A DNA stretch of 64,000 nt, taken from the NCBI RefSeq assembly GCF_030209375.1, contig NZ_JARVSC010000001.1:310001-374000 (forward strand). Reading direction: 5' to 3'. This DNA comes from Plantibacter sp. ME-Dv--P-122b (GTDB lineage Bacteria > Actinomycetota > Actinomycetes > Actinomycetales > Microbacteriaceae). The position numbers were made by a program, and so were the translations under genes. Below the pieces are notes generated by a model that had not been told where the DNA came from, did no database searches, and saw only the letters and a list, made by a program, of their open reading frames with translations. Each line of letters opens with the position of its first letter. The first letter of the stretch is position 1. Of the stretch, positions 44,398-49,837 are shown piece after piece.

Positions 44398-46770
44398 ATG
44401 CCCAAGAACAACACCCCCGCCGGCAAACGCCCGGCCAAGAACTTCGACCCCAAGTCCAAGTACGGCGAGAACAAGCGGCCCTTCGGCTCGCGCCCCGGCG
44501 CGAAGTCCGGTAGCAAGAGCGAAGGCCACCGCGGCTACCGCCCCGACGCCGGTGGAGCGCCGCAGAAGTCCCGCTGGAACGCCGACGAGCGTGCCGAACG
44601 CGCCGCCCGCTTCGAGTCGGAGGAGCGCGGCGACCGCGCACCCCGCGGCGACCGCAACGACCGTCCCGCGTACAACCGTGGCGGCGACCGGAACGAGCGT
44701 CCTGCGTACAACCGTGGTGGCGACCGCAATGAGCGTCCCGCGTACAACCGTGGCGAGCGGACTGAGCGTCCGTCTTACGGCGACCGCAACGACCGTCCTG
44801 CGTACAACCGCGGTGGCGACCGGAACGAGCGTCCGTCGTACAACCGTGGCGAGCGATCCGAGCGTCCGTCGTACGGTGACCGGAACGAGCGTCCGGCGTA
44901 CAACCGTGGCGAGCGGTCCGAGCGTCCGTCGTACGGTGACCGGAACGAGCGTCCCGCGTACAACCGTGGTGAGCGGTCCGAGCGTCCGTCGTACGGTGAC
45001 CGGAACGATCGTCCGGCGTACAACCGTGGTGGCGACCGCAATGAGCGTCCCGCGTACAACCGTGGCGAGCGGTCCGAGCGTCCTTCGTACGGCGACCGCA
45101 ATGAGCGTCCCGCGTACAACCGTGGTGGCGACCGCAATGAGCGTCCCGCGTACAACCGTGGCGAGCGGTCCGAGCGTCCTTCGTACGGTGACCGCACCGA
45201 GCGTCCCGCGTACAACCGTGGTGAGCGCACCGAGCGTCCTTCGTACGGTGACCGCACCGAGCGTCCCGCGTACAACCGTGGCGAGCGGACCGAGCGCCCC
45301 TCCTACGGTGACCGCCCGGCCCGTCAGGGTGACCCGCGTCAGGCGAACCGCACCGACCGTCCCGCGCGTTCCTACGACGACCGTCCGAAGCGTTCCTTCG
45401 AGGAGCGCCCGGTGCGTTCGTACGACGACCGCCCCAAGCGTTCCTTCGACGACCGCCCGAAGCGCTCGTTCGACGACCGCGGCGCGTCCGACGCCGGCCG
45501 TGGCAGCGACTACTACCCGAAGCGCGACGCCGGCTCCTACACGCCCCAGGACGACGTGGTGCTCGAGCGCCTCGAGGCCGACGCGATCCAGGCCGGCGAC
45601 GTCGAGGGTGTGACCTTCGAGAGCCTCGGCCTCGGCGGCAACATCGTCCGTGCGCTCGCCGAGCTCGGTGCCGACAGCCCGTTCCCGATCCAGGCGGCGA
45701 CCATCCCGGACGTCATCGCGGGTCGCGACGTCCTCGGCCGTGGTCGCACCGGCTCCGGCAAGACCATCGCCTTCGGCGCCCCGCTCGTCGAGAAGCTCAT
45801 GGAGAACGGCGGCGGCAAGAACCGCAAGCCGGGTCGCAAGCCCCGCGCCCTCATCCTCGCCCCGACACGTGAGCTCGCCCTGCAGATCGACCGCACCGTG
45901 CAGCCCATCGCGCGCGCCGTCGGCCTCTTCACCACGCAGATCTACGGCGGTGTCCCGCAGGGTCGCCAGGTCGGCGCTCTGCAGCGCGGCGTCGACATCA
46001 TCGTCGGCACGCCCGGTCGCATCGAGGACCTCATCGAGCAGGGTCGCCTCGACCTCTCGCAGGTCACCGTGACCGTCCTCGACGAGGCCGACCACATGTG
46101 CGACCTCGGCTTCCTCGAGCCCGTGCAGCGCATCCTGCGTCGCACCGCGCCCGACGGCCAGAAGCTCCTCTTCTCCGCCACCCTCGACAAGGGTGTCGCA
46201 GCCCTCGTCAACGAGTTCCTCCCGAACCCGTCAGTGCACGAGGTCGCCGGTGAGGACCAGGCGTCCTCCACGATCGACCACCGTGTGCTGGTGGTGGAGC
46301 ACAAGGGCAAGGACCGCCTCATCGAGGAGCTCGTCAACCGCACCGAGAAGACCCTCGTGTTCGCCCGCACCCGCGCCTACGCCGAGCGTCTCGCGGAGCA
46401 GCTCGGCATGGCGGGTATCCCCGCCGTCTCGCTCCACGGCGACCTCAACCAGGCGCGCCGCACGCGCAACCTGGAGAAGCTCACCTCGGGTCGGGTCAAT
46501 GTGCTCGTCGCCACCGACGTCGCCGCCCGCGGCATCCACGTCGACGACATCACGCTCGTCGTGCAGGCCGACGCCCCGGACGAGTACAAGACGTACCTGC
46601 ACCGTGCCGGCCGCACCGGTCGTGCCGGCAAGATCGGTCGCGTCGTCACGATCATCCCCAAGGCCCGTCGCCGCCGGATGACCGAACTGCTCGACCGCGC
46701 TGAGATCGAGGCCGCGTTCGACGACGCAGCCCCCGGCGACCAGCTCGTCGAGGACATCGCCACCGCATAG
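44398..46770 (+). CDS. DEAD-box RNA helicase with N-terminal Arg/Tyr repeat array
   Basis: This is a 790-residue helicase. Residues 84-303 form 13 copies of a 12-residue module GDRNERPAYNRG and 8 copies of ERSERPSY, in mixed order. A further Arg/Asp/Ser-rich part follows (about 304-365). The helicase core starts near residue 400: Q-motif FESLGLGGN, Walker A GRTGSGKT, DEAD in VLDEADHMCD, SAT in FSATLD and HRAGRTGRAG. Most bacterial relatives have such basic tails at the C-terminus. The array is probably disordered and may support RNA binding or condensate formation. The role in RNA remodelling or cold growth is inferred. Confidence 0.88.
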   Translation: MPKNNTPAGKRPAKNFDPKSKYGENKRPFGSRPGAKSGSKSEGHRGYRPDAGGAPQKSRWNADERAERAARFESEERGDRAPRGDRNDRPAYNRGGDRNERPAYNRGGDRNERPAYNRGERTERPSYGDRNDRPAYNRGGDRNERPSYNRGERSERPSYGDRNERPAYNRGERSERPSYGDRNERPAYNRGERSERPSYGDRNDRPAYNRGGDRNERPAYNRGERSERPSYGDRNERPAYNRGGDRNERPAYNRGERSERPSYGDRTERPAYNRGERTERPSYGDRTERPAYNRGERTERPSYGDRPARQGDPRQANRTDRPARSYDDRPKRSFEERPVRSYDDRPKRSFDDRPKRSFDDRGASDAGRGSDYYPKRDAGSYTPQDDVVLERLEADAIQAGDVEGVTFESLGLGGNIVRALAELGADSPFPIQAATIPDVIAGRDVLGRGRTGSGKTIAFGAPLVEKLMENGGGKNRKPGRKPRALILAPTRELALQIDRTVQPIARAVGLFTTQIYGGVPQGRQVGALQRGVDIIVGTPGRIEDLIEQGRLDLSQVTVTVLDEADHMCDLGFLEPVQRILRRTAPDGQKLLFSATLDKGVAALVNEFLPNPSVHEVAGEDQASSTIDHRVLVVEHKGKDRLIEELVNRTEKTLVFARTRAYAERLAEQLGMAGIPAVSLHGDLNQARRTRNLEKLTSGRVNVLVATDVAARGIHVDDITLVVQADAPDEYKTYLHRAGRTGRAGKIGRVVTIIPKARRRRMTELLDRAEIEAAFDDAAPGDQLVEDIATA
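44647..45306 (+). repeat. Coding tandem repeat, 36-bp and 24-bp modules
   Basis: 660 bp made of 13 copies of a 36-bp unit and 8 copies of a 24-bp unit within the DEAD-box gene. Copies differ mainly in third codon positions and in Asn/Thr or Ala/Ser swaps, so recent duplication is likely. Confidence 0.9.
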
Positions 46771-46784
46771 TCCGCACCGCATCA

Positions 46785-46820
46785 GGAACGCCCGCCGAGC
46801 TCACGCTCGGCGGGCGTTCC
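46785..46820 (+). terminator. Terminator of the DEAD-box gene
   Basis: GGAACGCCCGCCGAGC (46785-46800) pairs perfectly with 46805-46820 over 16 bp, with the loop TCAC. It begins 15 nt after the stop. Confidence 0.75.
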
Positions 46821-46872
46821 GCGTTCCGGTCGGCGTACTGTCGCCTCTCTTGAAGCGGCCGATGGTGATGAG

Positions 46873-46878
46873 TAGGCT
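46873..46878 (+). promoter_or_regulatory. -10 box of the XseA-like gene
   Basis: TAGGCT is followed by an A/T-rich 8 nt and ATG 46887, so the message has little or no leader. Confidence 0.45.
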
Positions 46879-46886
46879 CAAAATAT

Positions 46887-48284
46887 ATGAGCGAGTCCCG
46901 CGAAGCGATCGTCGATGCAGCAACCGAACGCGTCGTCGATGCCGCGCGGAAACCGCTGGGCCGCCGACCGGTCGACGTGAGCCGCGGCGCAACGCTCTAC
47001 GCCGATGCAGTTGCAGCGATCGGGGCTGTGGCGCTGGTCGGCGAGTGCCGAGCGGCCCAGACGTCGGTTGACCGCCGCACTGCCTGGTTCGACCTTGCAG
47101 ATCCGAGTGGACAGTGGACGTCCATGCTGGTGCTGGCGCCCGAGCGGAAGCGCATCGAGGGTTTCCTACGCATGGACCTCCTCGAATTCTTGACCGAGGG
47201 CAAGGTAATCGCGGTCAGCGGCCACTTCGTGCCGGGGAGACGAAGCGGCGAGCGACAACTTCGCGTGGAGAAGATCAGTGCGACTGCTGTCGAGGACGCA
47301 GGAGCCGCCTTCTTGGCTCGAGCGGAGGCTCAATCCTTCCTCGAGTCGGCCTTCGCGCAGGATCCTGAACGGTACGGCGTCAGGGATGCGACTCGTCCGT
47401 ACCGGGGCAGTGCCAAGCACCTCGCGCAGCGGCTCTCCGATCGAGGGGTGCACGTGAAGCGGGTCGTCACATTGCGGCCGGCCAGCTCTCAGACCCAGGA
47501 CGAGTTCTCTCGGGGGTTCGCTCGAGTCGGGCTCCACGAGGAGCAGCGGTCCGTGCTCTTCGACCCGACGGGTCTCTCTACGGCGCTCGACGCGATCGAG
47601 CCGGCCGATGATGTCGTCGTGGCGATCCATCGGGGAGGTGGACATTGGAGTGACCGTTCGGCGCTGGACGACGTCCAGGTCGTGCGATCGATTATCGACT
47701 GTGCAGCCCCTGTGTTCACCGGGGTGGGTCACTGGGCGGATGAGACCGTCGCGGATCGAGCGGCCTTCGCCTCGGCGGCCACACCGACCATGCTCGGAAG
47801 TCTGATCACCTCGCTCGCGCGTGAACAGGCTCAGGAGCGCTCACGGCGTTCAGCGCGGAGCGCTACTCCACCATCCACCACAGCGCCGGTTGCGATGCCG
47901 AGACCCGAGACGCTTCGCGCCGCGCAGCGATCCGCCGATTGGCAGTTCCGCCGACGGATCGACGAGGCGAGAGCCGCGGCGCTCTATCGCGTGCGGATGC
48001 GAGGCGCGATTCTGGCGTTGCTTTGGGCGGCGCTCACGTTCGTCCTCGCCGGTTCGGCGCTGTCGGTGCTCGAAAACGGCCTGGCCGCATCAGCAGTCTG
48101 GGTGTGGTTGGCGCTGGCAAGCCTCATTCTGACGTTGTGGAGTGCGTCAGCCCAGCGACGTGCGACCCGGGTGACTGTCAGACAACGGAAGCGAGGCTGG
48201 CCGCCGATCGATGATGAATCGTGGTTCGTCACCGCGGCTCAGGTGCGAACTCCGAGACAATTCCGACGGCACTTCGCCGAATGA
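46887..48284 (+). CDS. Membrane-anchored exonuclease VII large-subunit (XseA)-like protein
   Basis: This is a 465-residue protein that resembles the catalytic core of XseA. An OB-fold-like part covers about residues 28-135 (VDVSRGATLYADAV, VIAVSGHFVPG). The nuclease core has DDVVVAIHRGGGHWSD and FTGVGHWADETVADRAA; Arg249, His282 and Asp285 align with the Arg, His and Asp reported as essential in E. coli XseA. The long XseB-binding coiled coil is replaced by a linker and two helices (about 372-393 and 399-419), then a basic tail. Codon use looks less GC-biased than the neighbours. No XseB gene is adjacent. Activity is unproven. Confidence 0.68.
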   Translation: MSESREAIVDAATERVVDAARKPLGRRPVDVSRGATLYADAVAAIGAVALVGECRAAQTSVDRRTAWFDLADPSGQWTSMLVLAPERKRIEGFLRMDLLEFLTEGKVIAVSGHFVPGRRSGERQLRVEKISATAVEDAGAAFLARAEAQSFLESAFAQDPERYGVRDATRPYRGSAKHLAQRLSDRGVHVKRVVTLRPASSQTQDEFSRGFARVGLHEEQRSVLFDPTGLSTALDAIEPADDVVVAIHRGGGHWSDRSALDDVQVVRSIIDCAAPVFTGVGHWADETVADRAAFASAATPTMLGSLITSLAREQAQERSRRSARSATPPSTTAPVAMPRPETLRAAQRSADWQFRRRIDEARAAALYRVRMRGAILALLWAALTFVLAGSALSVLENGLAASAVWVWLALASLILTLWSASAQRRATRVTVRQRKRGWPPIDDESWFVTAAQVRTPRQFRRHFAE

Positions 48285-48319
48285 GCCGTCCCGTGGAGTA
48301 CCGCCCCGCCAAGCGCCCG

Positions 48320-49837
48320 CTACCGGGTGAGGGCCGCCCGCTCGTCGTCGCGCGGCGCGAGGACGACGGCGTCGTCGACCCCGTCGAAGGTCCGGACCGG
48401 TCGGGTGGCGTCCCAACGCTGCCAGCCCGGGTCGCCTGCCTTCGCGAACGCGACCCAGGCGTCGTGCATCGCGGTCGCGAGCGACTGCGGGGCCGAGGGG
48501 CCCGCCATGCGGACGGCCTCCGGGGAGTCGAGGTGGTCGAACACGAAGCCGATCTCCATCGCGTGTGCGGCACCGAGCTCGCCTTCGCCGTCCGCTCCGA
48601 CCGGGCTCCGCCAGGCGAACTCGTACACCCAGGTGTCCGAGCCGTTGTCGGCGCGTGCGTCCGCCAGTTGATTGAGCGGGACCCGGAGCAGGATGTCGGT
48701 GGCGATCGCCCCGAGGATCTCGCCGGGCCTCGCCTTCGGACGGTTGCGGCGGAACGTCCGCACGGCTGAGGCGCTGACGCCGAAGCGCAGTCGCGCCACG
48801 AACAGCTGGAGGCGCGTGATCCGCCGGGAGATACCGGTCGGGACGAGGAACAGTCGGTGCTCCTCCGTCGTCGTGCCGATGAGGACCGGGATGTCGGCGG
48901 AGCCGCCCGACACCAGGGCGTCCAGGGGACTCAGTGGCGCGAGTGGCGACGACGTCGTGATCGAGAATCCAGGGCCGCCGGTCAGCGGGTTGCCCCCGCC
49001 CATCACCCGCTCCTGGGCCGCGACGAGCCCTTCGGGCGGCACACGGCGGAAACCGGCCCTGGTGGCAGGGACGCCGAGGTCCTTGCCCATGAGCTTCGAG
49101 ATCCGGCCGGAGCGCTCGCGCGGCTCCGAGCGCAGCGGGCCGCTCTGGATGATCGCCCGCCGCATCACCGACGAGGCGTCCGGGTGTGCGAGGAGCGCGG
49201 CGACCGAGGCCCCGCCCGCGGACTCACCGAACACGGTGACGTTGTCGGGGTCACCGCCGAACCGCGCGATCTCGTCCTGCACCCACGTCAGCGCCGCGAG
49301 TTGGTCGGCGAGACCGAGGTTCAGCGGGACGTCGTCGAGCACCGAGAAGCCCTCGGACCCGAGGCGATAGTTGACGGAGACGAGCACGACGCCGTCGCGC
49401 GCGAACGCGGTGCCGTCGTACGAGTCGAGTGCGTTGGAGCCGTGGACGAGCGAGCCGCCGTGGATCCACACCATGACGGGGAGCGGGTCGTCCGACCGCT
49501 CGGCCGGTGTCCAGACGTTGAGGTTCAGGATCTCGTTGCCCGGCACCGTCACCGTGGGGAGCAGCTCACCGACCGCGCCGGCGTAGGGCGGCTGCGGGGC
49601 GGTCGCACCGGGACGGGTCGCATCGCGGGGGTCGTCCCAGGGCACGACCGGCTGGGGGAGTCGGAAGCGGTCGTCGCCGTACGGCGCTGCCGCGTAGGGG
49701 ACACCGAGGAATCGCAAGACACCCGCTTCGGTGAGGCCGGTGATCGGGCCGCTGCCGGTGGCGATGGTGACCGTTGTCGATCCGTCAGGCGCCGGGATCG
49801 GGTCGCCGGTCGGTTCCAGGCCAGGGTCGATGCTCAT
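48320..49837 (-). CDS. Type-B carboxylesterase/lipase family protein
   Basis: This is a 505-residue serine esterase. The oxyanion motif is WIHGGSLVHG (125-134), and the nucleophile elbow is FGESAGGAS (Ser206). The LGVPYAAAP and NLNVWTPAE strands, LGLADQLAALTWVQDEIARFGGDP and the C-terminal HAMEIGFVFDHLD (His) complete the para-nitrobenzyl-esterase type. There is no signal peptide, so it is cytoplasmic. The substrate is unknown. It converges on the XseA-like gene with 35 nt between stops and is divergent from a GNAT gene. Confidence 0.83.
   Translation of the reverse strand: MSIDPGLEPTGDPIPAPDGSTTVTIATGSGPITGLTEAGVLRFLGVPYAAAPYGDDRFRLPQPVVPWDDPRDATRPGATAPQPPYAGAVGELLPTVTVPGNEILNLNVWTPAERSDDPLPVMVWIHGGSLVHGSNALDSYDGTAFARDGVVLVSVNYRLGSEGFSVLDDVPLNLGLADQLAALTWVQDEIARFGGDPDNVTVFGESAGGASVAALLAHPDASSVMRRAIIQSGPLRSEPRERSGRISKLMGKDLGVPATRAGFRRVPPEGLVAAQERVMGGGNPLTGGPGFSITTSSPLAPLSPLDALVSGGSADIPVLIGTTTEEHRLFLVPTGISRRITRLQLFVARLRFGVSASAVRTFRRNRPKARPGEILGAIATDILLRVPLNQLADARADNGSDTWVYEFAWRSPVGADGEGELGAAHAMEIGFVFDHLDSPEAVRMAGPSAPQSLATAMHDAWVAFAKAGDPGWQRWDATRPVRTFDGVDDAVVLAPRDDERAALTR

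Follow-up and report, generated by a model that had tools for sequence, protein, structure and literature searches.

Exonuclease VII is a soluble repair enzyme comprised of one large subunit (XseA) and many small subunits (XseB). What, then, is the role of an XseA-like gene that stands without an adjoining xseB and whose product carries membrane helices? The question is raised by a gene in the window, the 64,000-nucleotide stretch of Plantibacter DNA analysed here, which was initially annotated as encoding an exonuclease VII-like core anchored in the membrane. The answer preferred here, with slightly less than even confidence, is that the gene moves as cargo on its own and that its product, an XseA homologue anchored in the membrane, makes no use of XseB and most likely benefits the cell by defence against foreign DNA. 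A fast-evolving mobile branch in which the small-subunit site is swapped for a membrane anchor would be a case of the fold put to a use other than repair, and the membrane branch would be a ready test of what XseB does. No description of a membrane-bound exonuclease VII was found in the literature searched, subscription journals being mostly outside its coverage.

Layout of the gene and its product

The gene is flanked on one side by a DEAD-box helicase gene, so named by eye, and on the other by a carboxylesterase gene that converges on it; its 465 codons are open throughout between the coordinates first given for it (Table 1). By eye, TTGAAG, 17 bases, TAGGCT and eight bases precede the ATG (46850-46889), an arrangement absent from the promoter scan output, which suggests a putative promoter of the gene's own and a leaderless start. 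The helicase (window 44398-46770) has a long N-terminal repeat tract, e.g. NERPAYNRGERSERPSYGDR.

Table 1. Features of the insertion and of the gene that it carries, in window coordinates
Feature	Coordinates	Strand	Basis
Inverted repeat, GC-rich, behind the helicase gene and shared with sister genomes; insertion just downstream	46786..46820		
Segment absent from 6/6 sister-genus genomes (tightest bounds)	46836..48305		flank comparison
XseA-like membrane protein, 465 aa, ATG to TGA	46887..48284	+	ORF reading, Pfam, profile matches
OB-like N-terminal region, residues ~32-147	46980..47327	+	profile-profile match to ordinary XseA N-termini
XseA catalytic-core region, residues ~186-316	47442..47834	+	Pfam and profile matches
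Glu206, at the position of E. coli XseA catalytic Asp155; Asp205 immediately before	47502..47504	+	alignment
Arg249, first residue of RGGG; E. coli counterpart Arg205	47631..47633	+	alignment
GHxxD motif, His282 to Asp285; E. coli counterparts His238 and Asp241	47730..47741	+	alignment
First predicted membrane helix, residues 374-392	48006..48062	+	hydropathy
Second predicted membrane helix, residues 399-417	48081..48137	+	hydropathy
Basic tail common to relatives (PP, Trp446, RTPRxxR), residues 437-465	48195..48281	+	alignment

According to the initial annotation, two helices take the place of the long coiled coil of XseA. Both helices are predicted at a hydropathy cut-off of 1.25, with a short loop between them, but they are preceded by a linker of about 55 residues that follows the core, and the replacement is not exact. 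A third, weaker hydrophobic stretch (residues 34-52, ahead of the OB strands) is above the same cut-off at 1.61; outside the C-terminal part this is a lenient limit, since core stretches of several relatives exceed it too. Basic residues flank the hairpin, on the core side of the first helix and after the second, which fits a topology with both ends of the protein in the cytoplasm.

Homology to the exonuclease VII large subunit

The open reading frame is, by sequence comparison, a homologue of XseA. The middle of the protein matches Pfam PF02601 (Exonuc_VII_L) at E 2.5e-18, with 67.1 bits and a cut-off of 35.9, and when the 16-member family was aligned by hhalign with ordinary XseA (46 rows plus E. 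coli), the match extended over window residues ~30-316 with a probability of 99.8. The E. coli XseA structure 8txr was the sole solved relative found at E 0.1 or better with a five-sequence family profile (E 1.7e-19), and the window protein alone matched it at E 1.6e-4. The homology predicted for residues 28-310 is thus borne out.

An OB-like N-terminus had also been proposed, and the N-terminal part of the family alone indeed matched the N-termini of ordinary XseA in one hhalign comparison (probability 97.2, E 3.2e-11). Pfam lists no OB family for the window protein, and the OB-domain matches in two relatives are below the cut-off (E 0.0021 and 0.0031). Two AlphaFold models are of low confidence, with a mean pLDDT of 44.2 and 49.8. 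In a Foldseek search with the latter, three 8txr chains came top; most of the hits below them were lysyl-tRNA synthetases, with some RPA chains, both kinds being OB-fold proteins. The query TM-scores were 0.27-0.33. The match to 8txr in this search serves as support only, because the alignment used for modelling included three ordinary XseA rows.

The resemblance to XseA ends near residue 316, about where the coiled coil of an ordinary XseA would begin. In E. coli XseA, this coiled coil binds XseB (PMC5684230). The host genome contains an ordinary xseA with an adjoining xseB on another contig, the separate pair that the initial annotation had called for, and no other xseB was found in it; the window gene is therefore an extra copy without a partner. 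Its product could be regarded as an extra repair nuclease working with the XseB of the host, as it has the same core and a host xseB exists, but its homology to XseA does not extend to the XseB-binding coiled coil, and it has no C-terminal motif of the ordinary kind. This is the least probable of the explanations considered here, and a highly improbable one.

The catalytic positions

Work by Poleszak in 2012 is said to have identified Arg205, His238 and Asp241 of E. coli XseA as catalytic; structure 8txr is named as an H238A form. Asp155 is needed as well, and D155A serves as a catalytic mutant, according to PMC11077951, from which Phe63 of E. coli XseA was also taken. Asp155, Arg205, His238 and Asp241 are kept in all 48 ordinary XseA proteins. 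In the window protein, Arg249 of RGGG, His282 and Asp285 were found where the initial annotation had placed them and correspond to the last three, and the Asp155 position, on which the initial annotation was silent, is taken by Glu206.

Of the 16 aligned membrane-family proteins, 14 have Asp at position 155, and two, the window protein and L087, have Glu. The Arg205 position is kept in 15, with Thr in L091, and the Asp241 position in 12, with Asn in L086 and His in L089, L090 and L093. The His238 position is kept in 16/16, as is the GGG. All four catalytic positions are intact in nine of the 16, compared with 48/48 in ordinary XseA. Arg, His and Asp together are kept in 10 of 15 homologues and are thus not lost in most of them.

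The nuclease activity assumed at the outset stands on the retained Arg, His and Asp, but the Asp155 position is Glu and seven of the 16 members differ at at least one position. Because of this Glu, and because the four positions are intact in 9/16, activity of the window protein is plausible, not assured; Glu could still serve. Judged from the alignment, the nuclease reading holds for most members, is uncertain for the window protein and is doubtful for five.

Family traits and phylogeny

The C-terminal motif SP..LxRGY is present in 48/48 ordinary actinobacterial XseA proteins and in 0/16 of the membrane family (0/17 counting L035). Within the last 40% of the chain, two helices are predicted in 13 of the 16 membrane-family members and one in L091 and L093, so that membrane helices occur in nearly all of the homologues aligned; L089 has none, its best window scoring 1.22, just under the cut-off. 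Of the ordinary XseA proteins, 45/48 have no helix in this part and 3/48 have one.

In a tree of the core, for which 35 of the 48 ordinary rows were taken together with E. coli XseA and P0003, the 16 membrane-family rows are found on one side of a branch, with a support of 92/91, below the value that the program marks with a star, and in 93% of 200 bootstrap trees. The clade of its own that had been predicted for this architecture is borne out in this sense, not conclusively. The placing of single rows is unsure because of the many long branches; the window protein and L087 pair firmly (99/96).

A single-gene insertion

The window gene is a single-gene insertion. Matches of the flanks to the sister genomes stop at 46820-46835 and begin again at 48306-48325. 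These matches are separated by 6 to 102 bases in all six sister genomes compared, a gap too small for the gene, which is therefore absent at this site in all of them; the window has about 1.5 kb there, holding this gene alone. No shared repeats of at least 7 bases were found between the insertion ends in the stretches compared. The GC3 of the gene is 0.73, compared with 0.89 (sd 0.03) for 40 called window genes. Together with the empty site, this low value bears out the transfer proposed from base use. GC3 is below that of the neighbours in 16/16 loci, by about two standard deviations or more in 14 (not L036 and L093), the neighbours being 4 to 40 genes per locus of more than 150 aa, called by a simple gene caller and with genes whose GC3 is not above GC1 dropped.

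The membrane family diverges far faster than ordinary XseA or the neighbouring genes in most of the pairs compared. In one Paenarthrobacter pair, the membrane forms are 69.2% identical (dN 0.203), compared with 95.3% (dN 0.029) for ordinary XseA. In L089 and L090, the membrane XseA proteins are 44.4% identical and the PNPases 91.9%. At the SRAP site, where 6 of the 10 pairs of L081-L085 were compared, five pairs of copies are 47-72% identical and their SRAP proteins 88-90%; in the near-identical L083 and L084 the values are 97.5 and 99.2%. In L081-L085, five genomes, the membrane XseA gene and the SRAP gene lie tail to tail at one site. For L081/L082, dS is 1.78 in the membrane XseA gene and 0.93 in the SRAP gene, as if alleles had been exchanged.

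The dN/dS ratio is below 1 in every pair for which it could be estimated (the estimate failed for L089/L090, and dS was saturated in several), so that the gene is kept, though fast-changing. This finding bears on the explanation that the window gene is an acquired gene decaying without function. Such decay would agree with the Glu at the Asp155 position, with the long branch and with the score of 67.5 bits against the curated XseA equivalog (TIGR00237), below its cut-off of 180. However, all 465 codons are open, the tail is intact, the closest relative, L087, also has Glu at this position, and the ratio is below 1 in family pairs; decay is very unlikely.

Relatives and distribution

A full-length relative with the same layout is found on five Rhodococcus plasmids, two of which were read. 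These copies are hidden by automatic annotation as plain 'exodeoxyribonuclease VII large subunit'. One large Rhodococcus plasmid with the relative is typed mobilizable, with a relaxase present. Two further Rhodococcus records give partial matches, to residues 1-197 and 1-46. The first of these is a partial copy of the Rhodococcus form on Rhodococcus qingshengii pLP1 (L044:4001-4591).

A membrane-bound nuclease that controls DNA entry, in transformation or conjugation exclusion and not in phage defence, would be consistent with the membrane location, with the preference of exonuclease VII for single strands and with carriage on large Rhodococcus plasmids such as the mobilizable one. It is an unlikely explanation: the Pfam-scanned neighbours include no competence or conjugation gene, and the window copy was inserted into the chromosome by itself.

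Relatives were also found in two Paenarthrobacter genomes. In the family of one of these, G1033, 12 of 295 genomes, G1033 included, match at E 1e-23 or better, and all 12 members are without the ordinary C-terminal motif. The 16-row alignment is comprised of these 12, L093 from the order-wide search, one Rhodococcus copy, the second Paenarthrobacter copy and the window protein; G991 and G1042 (L091), which have identical coordinates, were counted as one genome.

In the window's own family, 296 of 299 genomes match at E 1e-3, the window gene apart none better than E 1.3e-10, and the 28 best-matching loci read there (L007-L034), L035 aside, are ordinary XseA. The gene is present in one of the seven genomes of the genus at E 1e-12. 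A class-wide profile search of 394 genomes returned the window gene alone at E 1e-20, a strict limit with a narrow profile. The order-wide search returned 24 of 396 genomes at E 1e-18. Three of these are the genome of the window gene and, with the membrane form, G863 and G991, the latter with a second match as well; among the remaining 21, the 17 read at locus level all have ordinary XseA. The single window protein had no match in the genome-contig and viral-contig collections, and the Rhodococcus alignment was needed. No relative was found in the phage collection, searched with the window protein only, or in four IMG/VR scans with membrane-type or Paenibacillus queries.

Two IMG/VR contigs of 92-94 kb (L111:1483-2862 and L112:1279-2742) encode ordinary-type XseA, and in L111 a short XseB-like reading frame (named by eye) follows directly. 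A Variovorax plasmid (L037:7152-9139) carries an extra xseA-xseB pair, with the xseA annotated as two overlapping pieces.

When the two-helix-plus-tail module alone was searched for, it was found in three of 298 genomes of the window's family (the window, G140 and, weakly, G113) and in 11 of 294 of the other family, where one match is marginal and the rest are 10 known members. The known members L089 and L090 were missed, their C-termini being divergent and left out of the profile. Within the limits of these searches, the only other protein with the module is that of L035 (G140; L108:5815-6450 = L035:1315-1950), from another genus of the same family. This protein of 211 aa has the hairpin and the tail and is without a recognisable nuclease core.

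The module and the catalytic substitutions lead to a further explanation, that the protein is a DNA sensor, in which the XseA-like part would bind single-stranded DNA or DNA ends and the two-helix module would then disturb the membrane, as in abortive infection. It accounts for the catalytic changes in 7/16 members while the GGG and His238 are kept in all, for the helices and tail common to the members, with one Trp invariant across the 13-row alignment (A5), and for the L035 protein. Jung et al. in 2015 reportedly linked XseA to cell death in E. coli, which was counted in its favour. On the other hand, the window protein keeps its Arg, His and Asp, and the hairpin, a putative effector, gives one weak match to SLATT (E 0.024, one of 13 members). 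A sensor is a possible, rather doubtful explanation; entry control, XseB-using repair and decay are less likely than either defence or a sensor.

Neighbouring genes and the proposed function

No partner gene is constant across the loci. The neighbours are SRAP (one site in five genomes; by Pfam in L082), PNPase (L089 and L093, by Pfam), peptidase, aldo-keto reductase, alcohol dehydrogenase, dienelactone hydrolase, DUF222-HNH, GntR regulators and HrpB helicase, and for two neighbours the Pfam scan gave no family match. Most of the Pfam-scanned immediate neighbours are ordinary metabolic, regulatory or RNA genes. In L091, a GIY-YIG protein adjoins, and a type IV restriction enzyme and a Schlafen-type helicase are at most 10 kb away; a DUF1016/PDC-S02 nuclease adjoins in L043, and a DUF1016 gene is one gene away in L092. 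Five of seven neighbours match something in PADLOC (the Schlafen-type helicase weakly), a biased count, as the seven were hand-picked with no control set and the two DUF1016 genes correspond to each other at a single site. P0001, P0002, P0006, P0003 and P0005 had no match in PADLOC-DB up to E 1.

The initial annotation left a choice among defence, uptake control and envelope-linked repair. Defence is favoured indirectly by the mobility, the fast evolution and some defence-like neighbours, but no PADLOC model describes the protein. A lone, laterally moving, fast-changing gene for a membrane-bound DNA-binding protein or nuclease looks like one for a single-gene defence protein. In the preferred explanation, that of a membrane-anchored XseA homologue in defence, the OB-like domain and the XseA core would be situated at the inner face of the membrane, both ends of the chain being cytoplasmic, and their substrate would be single-stranded DNA or DNA ends. 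The two-helix hairpin would take over from the XseB-binding coiled coil and the C-terminal domain, so that the protein would be held, and probably clustered, by the membrane instead of by XseB. The benefit would most likely be defence, by cutting, holding or sensing phage or plasmid DNA near the membrane. The Glu at the Asp155 position, the mostly ordinary neighbours, the missing PADLOC model, the third hydrophobic stretch and the lack of relatives in the phage and IMG/VR scans were counted against this explanation.

In a more specific form, which is conceivable and held with low confidence, the family would be an XseB-free membrane branch of the exonuclease VII fold that serves as a one-gene immune system, bound foreign single-stranded DNA triggering cutting or, in the catalytically changed members, the hairpin. 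The family may be a sign of a one-gene defence system of actinobacteria that is missing from current lists.

Comparison with known systems

The SLATT two-helix effectors of conflict systems (PMC7159879) resemble the family in having two membrane helices, which in those systems are sometimes fused to a C-terminus, but there is no significant sequence match between them. Membership in SLATT was rejected, the C-terminal segments matching in only the one member noted above; the whole of P0002 matches the SLATT profile at E 0.22, with 12 bits and a cut-off of 26.3. Other Pfam matches of the C-terminal segments are weak: Phage_holin_3_6 at E 0.0023 in one member and Rv2743c in 4/13, with a best E of 0.004.

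A plasmid of Paenibacillus polymyxa (L038:4428-6191) has a short XseA-like gene followed by a gene for a 241-aa protein with several hydrophobic stretches. The product of the short gene, WP_052452951.1, resembles the family in its XseA core, in a hydrophobic C-terminal stretch (by eye) and in having no XseB annotated adjacent. Unlike the family, it is only 338 aa long, with a single such stretch, no shared tail and Asn in place of Asp241; in the tree it groups with ordinary XseA and has a long branch.

The closest comparison is that with XseA itself (PF02601, TIGR00237, 8txr). The window protein has the OB-like domain and the core in the same order, with RGGG and GHxxD. It differs in having no homology to the XseB-binding coiled coil or to the C-terminal SP..LxRGY region, in its two predicted membrane helices and basic tail and in the Glu at the Asp155 position; its gene has no adjoining xseB, and its family evolves faster. 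Because it departs from XseA at Asp155, in the XseB-binding region, in the C-terminal motif and in the curated score, the window protein is not classed as XseA; it is homologous to XseA and may act in an XseA-like way.
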